Positions 1,343 to 6,799 of a DNA stretch of 7,715 bases are shown in pieces (position 1 is the first letter of the stretch; each line of letters begins with the position of its first letter). The notes below the pieces were generated by a model. The model was not told the origin of the DNA. It ran no database searches and saw only the letters and a program-made list of their open reading frames with translations. The position numbers and the translations under genes were made by a program. Source of the DNA: a bacterium (GTDB lineage Bacteria; SM23-31; JAUVVT01); NCBI GenBank assembly GCA_030616165.1, contig JAUWXV010000179.1, positions 1-7,715 of the forward strand, given 5' to 3'.

Positions 1343-1378
1343 TTTAACCTACTTTCTTTGAAATATTACATGGCAAAA

Positions 1379-1405
1379 GTAGAGACATGCCATGGCATGT
1401 CTCTA
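1379..1405 (+). repeat. GTAG-headed palindrome A (REP-like)
   Basis: Bases 1380-1405 form a perfect 26-base palindrome centred on CCATGG, with arms TAGAGACATGCC and its complement. A GTAG tetranucleotide occupies 1379-1382, and the palindrome continues directly from it. The right end reads CTAT, so the head is nearly but not fully mirrored. It begins 37 bases after the hexomutase stop. RNA from either strand would fold into a stable hairpin. It is classed with three other palindromes in this window that share the head but not the stem sequence (see 1611, 5742 and 6640). Confidence 0.75.
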
Positions 1406-1507
1406 TCTAAATCTATATTTTACAATTGATTTTTTTTCAGAAAAAAGATTTAAAACAAATTATTTGGACTTTTTGCCTAATCATCTTTTAAAGGAAGTGT
1501 AAGCAAA

Positions 1508-1542
1508 AAAACCCAGTTAAAAATAATACTGGGTTTTATTTT
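1508..1542 (+). terminator. Rho-independent terminator
   Basis: A perfect 10-bp stem, AAAACCCAGT (1508-1517) with ACTGGGTTTT (1528-1537), encloses a 10-base AT loop and is followed by ATTTTA. The A-run before and T-run after the CCCAGT/ACTGGG core are typical of an intrinsic terminator and would also work in reverse. It lies 166 bases past the hexomutase stop, so it either ends a long 3' UTR or ends a short independent transcript starting after palindrome A. Confidence 0.7.
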
Positions 1543-1610
1543 ATGGTCTACTGAAAAAAGAAATTATATATATTAAATACCTTTTCGCACAAATTATCAA
1601 TGCCAAATCC

Positions 1611-1632
1611 GTAGGGGCGGGTTTACCCGCCC
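1611..1632 (+). repeat. GTAG-headed palindrome B (REP-like)
   Basis: GTAG (1611-1614) directly abuts a perfect 8-bp stem, GGGCGGGT (1615-1622) with ACCCGCCC (1625-1632), closed by two T residues. The stem is wholly GC-rich inside an AT-rich spacer. The GTAG head is present on the left only, which orients the element on the + strand. GTAGGGGC elements of this look are familiar to me as dispersed intergenic repeats in several bacterial phyla. Confidence 0.75.
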
Positions 1633-1703
1633 TCTTGTTGAATAATTAATGAATAAGGTCTTAAGCAGTAACAGCACAATGAATTCTAAATTTTTGCAAA
1701 TTT

Positions 1704-1732
1704 TTATTAGCATACTTTAAAATTATTATAAT
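1704..1732 (+). promoter_or_regulatory. Possible rnr promoter (weak -35, perfect -10)
   Basis: A perfect TATAAT lies at 1727-1732. The hexamer 17 bases upstream, TTATTA (1704-1709), matches the -35 consensus at only three positions. If used, the transcript would carry a leader of about 150 bases that includes the degenerate repeat at 1742-1794. TATAAT-like strings arise easily by chance in such AT-rich DNA, so this is a weak call. Confidence 0.3.
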
Positions 1733-1741
1733 GTATCTGTT

Positions 1742-1794
1742 ATGCTGAACCCTGTGCTAAACTTGATTCAGTATTGTTTCAGGATCAGAATGAA
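1742..1794. repeat. Degenerate CTGAA/TTCAG-rich intergenic repeat
   Basis: The stretch contains CTGAA (1745), TTCAG (1767), TTTCAGGATCAG (about 1778) and GAATGA. It resembles a decayed copy of the dispersed CTGAAACAAGTTCAG-type repeats seen in many bacterial genomes. ATGCTGAA (1742-1749) can pair with TTCAGTAT (1767-1774) in an 8-bp stem with one G-T wobble. Only one copy is in the window, so repeat status rests on recall rather than on a second copy. Confidence 0.4.
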
Positions 1795-1890
1795 AGGACT
1801 ATGTTTTATTTAGTTTTAATAACTTTTAAACAGTATTAAAATATCCAAATATTATGCATTTTTGAAAACTTACAAAAGTTCTATTTTACT

Positions 1891-4005
1891 ATGAAAAACA
1901 CAGATATCGAACAAAAAATCCTGAAATTTCTTAATTTGCATCAGGGAACAACATTCAGTTCGCGGGTAATATTTAAGGAACTTAATCTTCCCAGGAGTAA
2001 ATATCGTTCACTTCGGCTTATTTTGAAAGACCTTGCCAATCAAAAAAGGATTGAAAAAGTCGGGAAAAGAACATACAAGATAAAAAAGCCGCCTCACATG
2101 TCAATTGGTACAATTTCAATGACGAAAACTGGATATGGATTCGTGACCAATCACACAGATAAAAAAGAGATATATATTCCAATAGGGATGACCGGGACTG
2201 CAATGGATGGAGATACTGTTAAAGTTGAAATATACGCCTCAAGAAGGGGGAAATCTTTAGAGGGGGAAGTTGTTGAAGTCATCAAAAGAGCAAAAAAGAA
2301 AATTATAGGAACATATATGGAGAGTAAATCATTCGGATATGTGATTCCGGATGATAAAAAATGTACAAGGGATTTATACATAATTAAAGGGAAAAATAAA
2401 GGGGCAAAACAGGGAGAGAAAGTGGTTGCGGAATTTATCAAATGGGAATCTGAATATATGTACCCCGAAGGGATAATAAAAGAGGTTTTAGGAGACCCAT
2501 TTAAACCTGGAATTGATATGACTCTAATCGAAAAGGCTTTCGAACTTCCGAGGGATTTTCCTCTAAAGGTCAAGAAAGAAATAAAACTTTTGGATTTCAC
2601 AATTTTTGATTCGGAAGTCAAAAATCGAATAGACCTGCGAAATAAATTTATTCTCACTATTGACCCGGAAGATGCAAAGGATTTTGACGATGCGGTATCT
2701 CTTGAAATGCTTGAAAATGGTAACTTTTTGCTCTCCGTCAATATTGCTGATGTTTCTTACTATGTCAAAGAAAATACGGCAATCGATGAAGAAGCATTTA
2801 AAAGGGGAACAAGTGTCTATTTCCCCGACAGATGCATACCGATGCTCCCTAAAAAACTTTCGGAAGATATTTGCAGTCTCAAGCAAAATAAAGACAAACT
2901 GACCTTCACCGTTTTTATGGAAATAAATCCAAAAGGGGAGGTAATAAACTATAAACTTGCAGAAACCGTTATAAAAAGTAAGTTTCGACTCACCTATGAA
3001 AAGGCTCAAAAACTAATTGACGATAAAAAAGATTCAGAACTCGGAAAAACAATCTTGATGATGTCTGACCTTGCAAAGCTGTTGAAAAAAAACCGCATCA
3101 AAAAAGGCAGTCTTGATTTCGACCTTCCCGAGATAAAATTTTCTTTTGACCCGCTTGGTATCATAGAGGAGATAAAACCCAAACCAAGGCTCGACAGTCA
3201 CAACCTTGTTGAAGAATTTATGCTGATGGCGAATAAAGTTGTCACTCAATATATAGAAGAAAAAGCGAATGAACTCAAAACAAAAATACCTTTTATTTAT
3301 CGGATTCACGAAAAACCAGATAAGAAAAAAGTTGAGGAATATGCAAACTTCTTAAAAATAATAGGAATAAAATTCACTAATATTCAAAGACCCACTCCAA
3401 AAAGTTTTCAGAAAATCCTGGAAAAAGTAAAGAATAAACCTGAAGAAAGACTGGTAGGAGAGATTACATTAAGAAGTATGATGAAAGCGGAATATTCTCC
3501 AAAAAATATTGGTCACTTTGGGCTGGCATTTAAAAAATATACTCATTTCACCTCACCTATCAGAAGATACCCCGACCTTGTAGTGCACAGAATATTGAAA
3601 TCCTGCCTTAAAGAAGAAGAAAAGGATATGGCAGTGAGGATGAAACCAAAACTCAACGATATTTGCAGACATTCATCCGATATGGAGAAAAGAGCAGAAG
3701 AAGCAGAAAGAGAAGCCATTAAGATAAAACAACTCGAATATATGAAAGGTAAGCTCGGTGAGGAATTTGACGGCATAATATCCGGTGTCAGACCTTATGG
3801 TCTTTTTGTTGAGATTGAAGGCATCTTAGCAGAAGGGCTTGTCCACATCAGAAGTATGGATGATGACTACTATCACTATAACGAGGAGACATTTTCATTA
3901 ACTGGGTATCATTCAGGGAAAACATACCGGCTGGGAGGCAAAGTAAAAGTTCAGGTTGCAAGGGTTAATCTTGAAGAGAAACAACTGGATTTGGTGATTG
4001 TGTAA
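1891..4005 (+). CDS. rnr: Ribonuclease R (RNB-family 3'-5' exoribonuclease)
   Basis: A processive hydrolytic 3'-5' exoribonuclease that degrades structured RNA, rRNA fragments and mRNA in the cytoplasm. The 704 residues show the full RNase R order: winged-helix N-terminus (about 5-64), two cold-shock/OB domains (about 70-130 and 138-200), RNB catalytic domain (about 245-570) and a C-terminal S1 domain (about 622-704). The catalytic acidic motif TIDPEDAKDFDDA gives Asp258, 264, 266 and 267, spaced exactly as in E. coli RNase R (272, 278, 280, 281). The second signature, FTSPIRRYPDL, is at 553-563. The N-terminal helix-turn-helix separates it from RNase II. It is shorter than the 813-residue E. 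coli protein and lacks the basic C-terminal tail. The ATG at 1891 has no Shine-Dalgarno; it is chosen because the winged helix begins right after it. The gene stands alone and converges on the transporter gene. Confidence 0.95.
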   Translation: MKNTDIEQKILKFLNLHQGTTFSSRVIFKELNLPRSKYRSLRLILKDLANQKRIEKVGKRTYKIKKPPHMSIGTISMTKTGYGFVTNHTDKKEIYIPIGMTGTAMDGDTVKVEIYASRRGKSLEGEVVEVIKRAKKKIIGTYMESKSFGYVIPDDKKCTRDLYIIKGKNKGAKQGEKVVAEFIKWESEYMYPEGIIKEVLGDPFKPGIDMTLIEKAFELPRDFPLKVKKEIKLLDFTIFDSEVKNRIDLRNKFILTIDPEDAKDFDDAVSLEMLENGNFLLSVNIADVSYYVKENTAIDEEAFKRGTSVYFPDRCIPMLPKKLSEDICSLKQNKDKLTFTVFMEINPKGEVINYKLAETVIKSKFRLTYEKAQKLIDDKKDSELGKTILMMSDLAKLLKKNRIKKGSLDFDLPEIKFSFDPLGIIEEIKPKPRLDSHNLVEEFMLMANKVVTQYIEEKANELKTKIPFIYRIHEKPDKKKVEEYANFLKIIGIKFTNIQRPTPKSFQKILEKVKNKPEERLVGEITLRSMMKAEYSPKNIGHFGLAFKKYTHFTSPIRRYPDLVVHRILKSCLKEEEKDMAVRMKPKLNDICRHSSDMEKRAEEAEREAIKIKQLEYMKGKLGEEFDGIISGVRPYGLFVEIEGILAEGLVHIRSMDDDYYHYNEETFSLTGYHSGKTYRLGGKVKVQVARVNLEEKQLDLVIV

Positions 4006-4020
4006 ATATTTTTCCTATTT

Positions 4021-4046
4021 GCAACTTTTTTTGAAAAAAAAGTTGC
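4021..4046. terminator. Inverted repeat between convergent genes, likely bidirectional terminator
   Basis: GCAAC plus seven T (4021-4032) is complementary to seven A plus GTTGC (4035-4046), a 12-bp stem with a two-base centre; in RNA the loop would open wider. It sits in the 74-base gap between the convergent rnr and transporter stops. It lacks a clean T-run after the stem on either strand, though the minus strand meets a run of eight T beginning at 4041. The position supports a terminator, but the structure is not canonical. Confidence 0.5.
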
Positions 4047-4079
4047 TCAAAAAAACTTTCAACATTTCATAGTGAGAAT

Positions 4080-5486
4080 CTAAATCGACGCTGGCATCTG
4101 GAATATGCAGAAATAACCGAAAACGACCGCAGCAATCGTCAGACCCACAATAAAAATCCAGTGTGGTTTGAGTATCTTCCATGCTTCAGTAGAAATAAGT
4201 TTCGGCAGAACCCACACCAGTCCTATCAAAACCAGAACAGCCTGAAAGGGTGTAAAAAGAAGCCCATCAAGAATTGCACTCATTTTAATTATAGATACAG
4301 GTTCTATCCCAAATGTGTATATAATAACAATATTTGTGATAAAAAACGTAGCAATAAAAATCCTGAACTGAGTTAACCACTGAAATTTTTTATTGAATTT
4401 AGGAACACAAATTCTCAAAGAATCGGCAATCAACCTTGGCCAACCAGCAAATTGACCGATAAGTGTGCTTATCAAAGCGGCACATCCAGCAATTATAAAA
4501 AGATATGCTCCAAATTTGCCCCATAGTTTGCCGAATACATTAGAAAGTTCAAGAGCAACTGAAGAACCCTGAGGTGCCAAATGCTCGGGACGAAGAATCC
4601 CCGAGCCGGATAACATAAAACCAGCAGTAACAACAATTCCTATTATCATTGCTACCGTAGCATCTACATAAACCACTCTGCACCATCCTTTTACCCTTTT
4701 TGCTGTTTCTCTTGTCATATTTTTCAGTGAATTGACATCGCACGGCTGACCATATTTTCTACCCTGTGCCATCCCATAACCTGCTCCAAAAACCCAGTAT
4801 GTATACCAGACCTGACTTGCAAAACCTCCCGCAGCCCATCCAATTAAGGGGAGTATTTCATTCCAGGGATTTGGAGATACACCCTCTAAACTTAACGCCC
4901 ACTGCGGAACCTCAGGAATATTAAATCCGATTACGCCTTTAAAAAATTCACCAAAACCAGGAAATGTATGAATTGCTACATATAATACACCCACTATTAT
5001 TATGAACACAAGCACACTCATTATATATTTTATTATATTAAATTTACCGGACCAAACCACAAAAATTGCAAAAATAGTAATAATCCATCCCCATATAAAT
5101 GGTTTAATAGGGATAATGGAATTAGCGAAAACTCCTGCAGCCGATGCAACTCCTCCAATAGAAATTGCTCCAGCGAGAAACTGACCGATAAGGATAATCC
5201 AGACTGCCCAGTTTCCTCTTCCGGGCATCCTGCTGAACATATCAATCATCCCTTCACCGGTACAGACTGTGTAACGCGCACCACTTAATCCTATGAAGTA
5301 TTTTAATAAGATTCCGACTACCGGTGCCCAAAGTACGGTGATACCAAGAATTGAACCCATTCTCGTTGCAAGTATCACCTCACCAGAACCAATATACTCA
5401 GCACACCAGACAAATGCAGGTCCAATAATCGCAAGAATCGCCAGCCCTTTCGGCGCTATACTGATATTGTTCTCATTCTTCATCAT
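4080..5486 (-). CDS. Nramp-fold transporter with altered metal-binding motifs
   Basis: Integral inner-membrane transporter of the Nramp family (LeuT/APC fold), 468 residues with about 11 hydrophobic segments. Family resemblance shows in GPAFVWCAEYIGSGEVILA in TM1 (about 22-40), the TM6 region (about 213-237) and the overall length. Classical Mn/Fe Nramps bind metal through DPGN in TM1 and an AMPH/MPH motif in TM6. Here the TM1 break reads GSGE (33-36), and the matching TM6 stretch reads about GGFASQVWY with no Met-Pro-His. An acidic Glu36 replaces the Asn, but the metal-ligating Asp and Met are gone, so manganese or iron transport should not be assumed. The first codons are TTG-ATG-ATG; the ATG at 5486 is preferred because AAGGGA lies seven bases upstream. 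The TTG at 5489 is too close to it, and the ATG at 5483 is an alternative. The gene is monocistronic by spacing and converges with rnr. A candidate operator lies at 5543-5561. Confidence 0.88.
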   Translation of the reverse strand: MMKNENNISIAPKGLAILAIIGPAFVWCAEYIGSGEVILATRMGSILGITVLWAPVVGILLKYFIGLSGARYTVCTGEGMIDMFSRMPGRGNWAVWIILIGQFLAGAISIGGVASAAGVFANSIIPIKPFIWGWIITIFAIFVVWSGKFNIIKYIMSVLVFIIIVGVLYVAIHTFPGFGEFFKGVIGFNIPEVPQWALSLEGVSPNPWNEILPLIGWAAGGFASQVWYTYWVFGAGYGMAQGRKYGQPCDVNSLKNMTRETAKRVKGWCRVVYVDATVAMIIGIVVTAGFMLSGSGILRPEHLAPQGSSVALELSNVFGKLWGKFGAYLFIIAGCAALISTLIGQFAGWPRLIADSLRICVPKFNKKFQWLTQFRIFIATFFITNIVIIYTFGIEPVSIIKMSAILDGLLFTPFQAVLVLIGLVWVLPKLISTEAWKILKPHWIFIVGLTIAAVVFGYFCIFQMPASI

Positions 5487-5542
5487 CAATTCATCCCTTT
5501 TTAAATCAATTTAACAAGAGTTTTTGATTGTATTCTAATGCC

Positions 5543-5561
5543 ATGTTAAATAACATATGTT
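5543..5561. promoter_or_regulatory. Candidate operator upstream of the Nramp-like gene
   Basis: ATGTTA-AA-TAACAT (5543-5556) is a perfect inverted repeat with 6-base arms. It overlaps a second palindrome, AACATATGTT (5552-5561), giving three alternating ATGTT half-sites. It lies 57-75 bases upstream of the preferred transporter start, just upstream of a TAGAAT (-10-like) on the minus strand (complement of 5532-5537). A dimeric repressor or activator site is plausible, but AT-rich DNA yields such repeats by chance. Confidence 0.35.
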
Positions 5562-5741
5562 CTTTTTTGTAATTTTTATTAAAAAAAGTTTACTGTAGTT
5601 AAGCACTTTTTTAATGATAAAATAAAAAAAGTTCCTTAATTTTTATATTTGTATAATTTTCAAAAATATGTTAACGGACAGACAAATGCCTGCACACTGT
5701 GTTATATCCCCACATAATAATCATTTGTTATTAAATATATT

Positions 5742-5766
5742 GTAGGGACAGGACATTGTCCTGTCC
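5742..5766 (+). repeat. GTAG-headed palindrome C (REP-like)
   Basis: GTAG (5742-5745) directly abuts a perfect 10-bp stem, GGACAGGACA (5746-5755) with TGTCCTGTCC (5757-5766), around a single central T. The stem itself contains tandem GGACA units. As in palindrome B, the head occurs only on the left, which orients the element. It lies about 98 bases beyond the radical SAM stop. Confidence 0.75.
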
Positions 5767-5863
5767 TTCTGTACTAAAGTAAAAGTTGATTTTATGTCGT
5801 TTATTATTTCTCCATTTCAAAAAGTTTCAAGAGAATATATATCATTTATTATTTAATAAGGCA

Positions 5864-6628
5864 CTAATATTTAAAAAACTTTCTATATCCTGCCTTTTCC
5901 AGGCGCATAACTGTGGTTTTATACGGGTCACACGTTTCTTCTTCAAAAAAGTCTGAATAGCCTATACTGTCAAGTTTTTTAATAATAGACCTCCTTTCAT
6001 CTCTCGGCATTAATCTCGAATCACTCATGCAGGCAGTATGAAAACTTATTCTATTTTTCATCAAATTCGAAATCGCAGCAAATGGCAGTTGATAGAATTC
6101 TCCGTCAGCACCTGTCCTCTTTTGAAAACCTTCAGGTGAACCTGCTTTCAGAGAAACTCTTACATGAATATTTTCGTAGTCTCCCAACTTTTTAACATAT
6201 TTTTCATCGTCACCGAATAAAATGCCATTGGTTTCAAGTATAAAAAGTAAATTTGTATTTTTTAATCTTCTCAGCACTCCAAACAAATGCTCTTTTGATA
6301 TAGTAGGTTCACCACCAGAAATCCTCACCTTCGACACCTTTTTAGTTTTAGCATTCTCAATCAGATTCTCTGCGACTTCTTCAGGAGTGAAGTATTCTCC
6401 GTACTCTTTTGGAAAATCTCTCGACCATTCGACCCAGCAAAAAACACATCTTAAATTACACCCAATCGTGTATCCTGTTGATATTCCCCCATAAACACCT
6501 GTACAATAAAATTTAGTATACTTTCTCGAATTACCCCTGCAAAATATTTTTTCACCCTCTTTAGAGACTTCAAGTGGATTGAATGGCTCGAAATTATCTG
6601 TTAAATATCCAGGATAAGACATAAACAT
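5864..6628 (-). CDS. Radical SAM enzyme of unassigned function (PFL-activase-like)
   Basis: A cytoplasmic radical S-adenosylmethionine protein of 254 residues. The 4Fe-4S ligand motif CNLRCVFC gives Cys57, Cys61 and Cys64, and the SAM-binding GGE motif reads RISGGEPTI (102-110). LETNGILFG (131-139) and HVRVSLKAG (155-163) follow as beta strands of the partial TIM barrel. Two Cys precede the cluster (30 and 42) and two follow it (200 and 233); these are too few and too scattered for an obvious second cluster. The layout resembles the radical SAM group related to pyruvate formate-lyase activating enzyme that I recall mainly from archaea. No glycyl-radical enzyme partner is present, so the substrate is unknown. 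Two ATGs are possible (6628 and 6622). The first is kept, though its Shine-Dalgarno is poor: GAGG lies 15 bases upstream, inside palindrome D. Confidence 0.9.
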   Translation of the reverse strand: MFMSYPGYLTDNFEPFNPLEVSKEGEKIFCRGNSRKYTKFYCTGVYGGISTGYTIGCNLRCVFCWVEWSRDFPKEYGEYFTPEEVAENLIENAKTKKVSKVRISGGEPTISKEHLFGVLRRLKNTNLLFILETNGILFGDDEKYVKKLGDYENIHVRVSLKAGSPEGFQKRTGADGEFYQLPFAAISNLMKNRISFHTACMSDSRLMPRDERRSIIKKLDSIGYSDFFEEETCDPYKTTVMRLEKAGYRKFFKY

Positions 6629-6639
6629 AAATTTTCTTT

Positions 6640-6672
6640 TCCGCCTCAGGTGAATACGCTGCGGCGGACTAC
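6640..6672 (-). repeat. GTAG-headed palindrome D (REP-like) in the radical SAM leader
   Basis: On the minus strand GTAG (6672-6669) directly abuts TCCGCC (6668-6663). This pairs with GGCGGA (6645-6640), then, after one mismatch, CAG pairs with CTG, around a 9-base loop. It is the only strongly GC-rich segment of the 171-base spacer. It ends 11 bases before the radical SAM ATG, so it would form a hairpin in that gene's 5' leader and enclose its only GAGG. The head is on one side only, oriented toward the gene. Confidence 0.65.
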
Positions 6673-6799
6673 TTTCTTTTCAAATAAAATAGATTATAAT
6701 AAAGTTCTTTAAAAATATATTATACTTATTTTATTTAATTACAAGAAAAAAATGAAAAATTGTCTAAAAATTAATTTCTTTATTTAGGGAGGTTTTGTC

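Follow-up and report, generated by a model that had tools for sequence, protein, structure and literature searches.

Four short palindromes, each directly preceded by GTAG and built on unrelated stems, lie in the intergenic spaces of a 7,715-nucleotide stretch (C136:1-7715; hereafter the window) of a 3.74-Mb draft genome from a sparsely sampled bacterial phylum; are these REP elements, and if so, how are stem and transposase matched? The initial annotation had read all four as GTAG-headed REPs of the kind recognised by RAYT transposases, while seeing no RAYT gene in the window. We found all four palindromes where it had placed them, and none of the genes encoded in the window (Table 1) is a RAYT; a comparison of the window with Rfam gave 0 matches. 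Two inverted repeats with A/T runs, at 1505-1540 and 4021-4046, stand 3' of the phosphomutase and exoribonuclease genes, respectively, and are probably ordinary terminators.

Table 1. Genes, palindromes and longer repeats of the window
Feature	Position	Strand	Remarks
Phosphoglucomutase/phosphomannomutase	23-1342
RNB-domain exoribonuclease, RNase R type	1891-4005
Nramp-like transporter	5489-4080
Radical SAM protein	6628-5864
Further predicted protein	7384-6800
Longer dispersed repeat around the 1379 palindrome	1343-1496		75-93% identity to 8 or more other sites in the genome sample
REP, AGAC-foot, near double-foot type (GTAGAGACATGCCATGGCATGTCTCTAT)	1379-1406		~25 genome sites; 13-bp perfect arms
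Longer repeat unit holding the 1611 REP	1541-1686		96.6% identity to C42:19578-19723
REP, GTAG + GGGCGGGT-TT-ACCCGCCC, single foot	1611-1632	+	Exact copies and in-gene RAYT copies
~335 bp repeat unit carrying the 5742 REP	5534-5870		At least 10 sampled copies, 84-96% identity, mostly partial
Decayed inverted partner REP (elsewhere ...CTGTGTTCTGTCCCTACATAATAATC)	5697-5715	-	From flank alignment of copies
REP, GTAG + GGACAGGACA-T-TGTCCTGTCC, single foot	5742-5766	+	31 exact copies, control 0
Imperfect hairpin TCCGCC...GGCGGA after GTAG	6640-6672	-	GTAG head not conserved

Three of the palindromes are members of GTAG-tagged REP families of a known kind. In the first, GTAG occupies 1379-1382 and the arms (1380-1392 and 1393-1405) begin at 1380, so the head's TAG is itself part of the palindrome, a near 'double foot' of the form GTAG...CTAT. 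The second has GTAG at 1611-1614, arms of 8 bp and a loop of 2 nt; the third has GTAG at 5742-5745, arms of 10 bp and a loop of 1 nt. Searched against the whole genome, each gave between 18 and 31 exact matches and its reversed control gave 0, bearing out the expectation of many copies per stem: 31 for GTAGAGACATGCCATGGCATGTCTC (the 1379 element), which correspond to about 25 sites with the strands merged because the pattern is palindromic; 18 for GTAGGGGCGGGTTTACCCGCCC (1611), rising to 31 at up to two mismatches; and 31 for GTAGGGACAGGACATTGTCCTGTCC (5742).

All three REPs sit in longer repeats, composites that are REPIN-like or MITE-like. Some other copies of the unit around 1611 carry a second, inverted REP (GTAGGGGCGGATTTATCCGCCC) about 77 nt off, which is absent in the window, and the unit around 5742, which here fills the intergenic space, elsewhere has its inverted partner about 37 nt upstream. 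This 335-bp repeat also stands at the starts of contigs C11, C13, C17, C32, C73, C79, C120, C286 and C321; being so often at contig ends, it is a probable cause of breaks in the genome assembly. Another dispersed repeat, about 50 nt long, lies apart from these at 1737-1797 (TGTCATgCTGAA..CCTGTGCTGAACTTGATTCAGTATTGTTTCAGgATC); it has no GTAG head and is found in at least 7 copies in the sampled genome, at 83-92% identity.

The fourth palindrome did not hold up as a GTAG-headed REP. Its GTAG reads on the minus strand from 6672 to 6669, directly before the imperfect stem, but GTAGTCCGCC had 2 matches in the whole genome against 2 for the control. The element lies within a dispersed repeat of 60-77 nt whose copies vary in the bases before the stem (GTAATC, GTGGTC and GTAAAC); its GTAG is therefore no conserved head, and possibly arose by chance. 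The dispersed element, seen at 6600-6700 and at L045:8903-8930, has the ends CTTTCTTTgAAAAGAAAG...AAAAGAAACTTT and a variable hairpin inside; one copy without the hairpin resembles an empty site.

The association of GTAG with hairpins extends far beyond the window. In a 543-kb sample of the genome, 109 of 1786 GTAG sites (6.1%) were directly followed by a perfect hairpin of at least 8 bp, compared with 0.04-0.5% for permuted versions of the head free of overlap with it (TAGG, which overlaps GTAG, reached 2.3% and was left out of the control range); the sample was partly picked via earlier matches, which should affect this head-against-head comparison little, but which means that the extrapolated figure of about 700 sites in the genome may be too high. 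We counted about 30 stem types under GTAG in this sample, and only 12 of 105 hairpin sites fell in open reading frames, though these make up 77% of it. An excess of GTAG before stems, several stem types under one head and an intergenic bias had all been anticipated by the initial annotation, as had Y1 transposases elsewhere in the genome: a PF01797 profile search yielded 7 loci, and adding a RAYT query raised the total to about 16 Y1/HUH loci.

Most of these loci are RAYT group 4 (TnpAREP subclass 2.4), judged by in-gene REP and linker anatomy. The prevailing type reads MKYNPEKHHRRSIRLKGYDYS...MPNHIHG...WQRNYYEHIIR, and most of its members carry a GTAG hairpin within the coding sequence; in most, not all, of the group-4-like copies a REP lies in frame between the HUH and Y motifs. 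Both motifs and WQ are present, the Y1 fold being seen on a homologue, and NCBIfam REP_Tyr_transpos was the top match for all five RAYTs scanned, with the four group-4-like ones among them scoring below its cut-off. The further proposal, that a RAYT would be found with a stem matching those of the window, stood in part. The 1611 element is exactly the in-gene hairpin of the RAYT genes on C283 and C302, and a close variant of the 5742 stem lies inside a RAYT fragment (C302:3202); for the 1379 stem we found no exact RAYT match in the genome, the nearest being that of an AGAC-foot RAYT (C329, L107) whose stem differs in the middle.

Around one RAYT of another type lie several copies of the REP that belongs to it, CCGAGCCTG..CAGGCTCGG. 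An other-type RAYT on C182 (L038, ~14400-15650) lies within a head-to-tail array of at least 7 GTAGCCGAGCCTGTCC(C/T)CAGGCTCGG repeats. A further RAYT is common to two genera of the phylum (L083 in one; L102 and L104 in the window's genome), and its linker contains tandem QAQGPANGKYG units beside in-gene REPs, as though a linker segment had been multiplied.

Quentin 2018 (PMC6006769) gave REPs inserted in frame between HUH and Y as the mark of subclass 2.4, that is, RAYT group 4; we had considered them as an unreported feature and dropped that idea on finding them there. What is new is that in-gene stems match flanking ones and that stems covary with two helices, alphaB and alphaC; neither observation was found in the accessible part of that paper, within a literature search of open-licence texts. 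A profile scan named 80 loci in at least 15 phyla, including the isolates Aquaspirillum serpens, Nostoc calcicola and Thermus arciformis, and additional genomes enlarged this collection to 174 distinct group-4 proteins. A GTAG hairpin is present in the HUH-Tyr linker of 142 of the 174 genes, compared with 1-13 genes for control heads not overlapping GTAG, and in the middle half of the 142 it lies 14-21 codons past the start of the HUH motif. These hairpins comprise 80 distinct half stems. Of the 82 genes that also have a flanking REP, 55 share its 10-nt half stem (mean 2.2, maximum 9 with shuffled flanks).

The hairpin is read in either of two forward phases or in the opposite orientation, so the peptide it encodes varies, and the linker loop is predicted to be disordered (pLDDT under 50 in the AlphaFold model of the A. 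serpens protein); together these argue that the DNA hairpin, rather than the peptide, is what matters. An apparent synonymous conservation of the hairpin (98% versus 51% identical codons) was dropped as circular, the genes having been grouped by identical stem.

We found that differences in stem are best explained by a protein segment around PKSGSLGAIVRGFKS, at alphaC and directly after the linker, with a partial correlation of 0.34 after controlling for overall protein distance (window median -0.02; permutations up to 0.05). Stem position 5 tracks column 91, where Pro goes mostly with A and Gly with G, and positions 6-8 track columns 92, 95 and 96. Position 10 tracks alphaB columns 53, 57, 60 and 61, ExxxTxxxR going with G and CxxxIPxHF mostly with A; position 9 had no clear partner column. 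The stems GGGCACGGCA and GGGCACGGCG, the latter that of A. serpens DSM 68, illustrate the division: an alphaC of the SIPTIIRSFK type is common to both and alphaB differs. A signal for the foot (positions 1 and 3) comes from only 8 genes, with two independent pairs. Column 119 was discarded as a foot partner: its correlation of 0.72 is carried by few genes and gave p=0.12 on independent pairs.

Mapped onto the AlphaFold model for A. serpens, the residues of the code fall on helices alphaB (58-73, one lying just past its end) and alphaC (119-138); those of alphaC (among them P120, T121, R124 and S125) share one helix face and those of alphaB (E66, T70, I73 and R74) lie at the helix end. Among solved structures the best match is 4er8, the E. 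coli RAYT with its REP (Z 12.8 over 129 residues, rmsd 3.2). There K82 of helix alpha3, which we take as alphaC since it precedes the WQ motif, contacts the stem, and the region around beta4 contacts GTAG (PMC8266576). The covariation map agrees with the E. coli complex for alphaC, and its alphaB part is new.

Taken together, we consider it probable that the REPs of the window are spread by RAYTs encoded elsewhere in the genome, that group-4 RAYT genes contain an own-family REP, and that separate protein surfaces choose separate bases of the hairpin. As REPs, the elements at 1379, 1611 and 5742 are small, non-autonomous and able to fold into hairpins as single strands. Each family is presumably mobilised by a Y1 (HUH, single-tyrosine) RAYT, and several families would coexist because the roughly 16 loci differ in specificity. 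GTAG would guide cutting as in characterised RAYTs; such cutting of single-stranded REPs has been demonstrated for groups 2 and 3 only (PMC8266576). Group-4 RAYTs have their own-family REP in the loop predicted to be disordered, often with another just outside the gene, the in-gene copy perhaps serving as the gene's own substrate or regulator. The covariation would then reflect recognition, possibly through direct contacts with the bases.

An alternative, which we regard as unlikely, is that REPs entered these genes passively, a flexible loop tolerating them, and that stem and protein are linked by common descent only. Passive insertion is how in-gene REPs are read in PMC6006769, the disorder predicted for the loop is in keeping with it, and REPs enter other genes as well (PMC3733652); tolerance of the loop itself is also compatible with recognition. 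Against descent alone, in leave-one-out prediction of positions 5-10, twelve code residues reached 0.82 and the other columns only 0.53, despite carrying more descent signal; the twelve were first selected on the same data as scored, leaving nested cross-validation and a set of 15 genes as the sole out-of-sample tests. In the former, with columns picked on half of the data, the values were 0.70 versus 0.55 and 0.46; in the latter, genes without an in-gene REP, the flanking stem was predicted at 4.0 of 6 positions versus 1.83 of 6 when shuffled.

Stem and residue changes also coincide on 65 tree-independent pairs, most strongly for position 10 (column 57, p=2.8e-10; column 61, p=1.9e-8), then for position 5 with column 91 (p=8e-5) and position 8 with column 96 (p=5e-4), and the same covariations recur in the 86 genes with perfect 10-bp stems (p=1e-5 to 3e-4). 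Among pairs at 50-70% identity elsewhere in the protein, the whole variable stem is shared in 44% of those with no code difference and almost never in those with five or more. Moreover, two helix faces carry the signal, and one of these lies some 30 residues upstream of the inserted REP, which also speaks against descent alone.

Quite improbable, in our judgement, is an exchange of segments between RAYT genes that carries the in-gene REP together with the adjoining alphaC codons and so mimics a code without recognition. Only a short distance separates the in-gene REP from the alphaC codons downstream of it, so part of the signal of these codons could be physical linkage, and columns 82-88, beside the REP, show a moderate signal as well; but position 10 follows alphaB, which is farther away and upstream of HUH, the conserved columns in between show nothing, and genes without an in-gene REP still fit. 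A reading of the palindromes as terminators of transcription or as inverted repeats due to chance, which their intergenic sites and AT-rich surroundings might suggest, is very hard to credit given the many identical copies with zero controls and the strict GTAG offset of the first three elements, and the presence of the same stem inside coding genes.

Within the favoured reading, in which proteins recognise the stems that they spread, we lean towards a modular code. One face of alphaC would probably choose the middle of the hairpin, the end of alphaB the apical pair, and an N-terminal Arg together with the strand after WQ perhaps the foot; each gene would hold its own substrate hairpin, and thousands of genes may thus be self-labelled for specificity.

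These elements resemble the GTAG-tagged REP families of Di Nocera 2013 (PMC3733652), in which GTAG lies directly at a stem of 6-13 bp and many families, several per genome and mostly intergenic, have repeat-specific transposases; the genome and stems differ, and the longer repeat units and REP pairs are reported here only. The proteins are like TnpAREP subclass 2.4, described in PMC6006769 as HUH-Y proteins without a C-terminal extension, with REPs between HUH and Y in the gene and both canonical and double-foot REPs. E. coli TnpAREP (4er8; PMC8266576) shares the fold, the GTAG contacts near beta4 and the alpha3 stem contact, but belongs to group 2, binds a bulged REP in which the upper stem is structural only, and has no described role for alphaB. 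The TnpA proteins of IS608 and ISDra2 (IS200/IS605) share the Y1 fold and hairpin recognition; unlike RAYTs, they belong to self-mobilising insertion sequences, use guide tetranucleotides and have no REP population.

Differing strategies of REP choice were described for two RAYT groups in 2021 in a study without group-4 data (PMC8266576). Since the REP lies inside the group-4 gene itself, one sequence supplies protein and substrate as a matched pair, and such pairs make RAYT specificity testable, by computation at scale and by swaps of a few residues. The in-gene REP of group 4 is thus a matched substrate label that reveals a likely recognition code; if true, this code would account for the coexistence of many REP families in a single genome.
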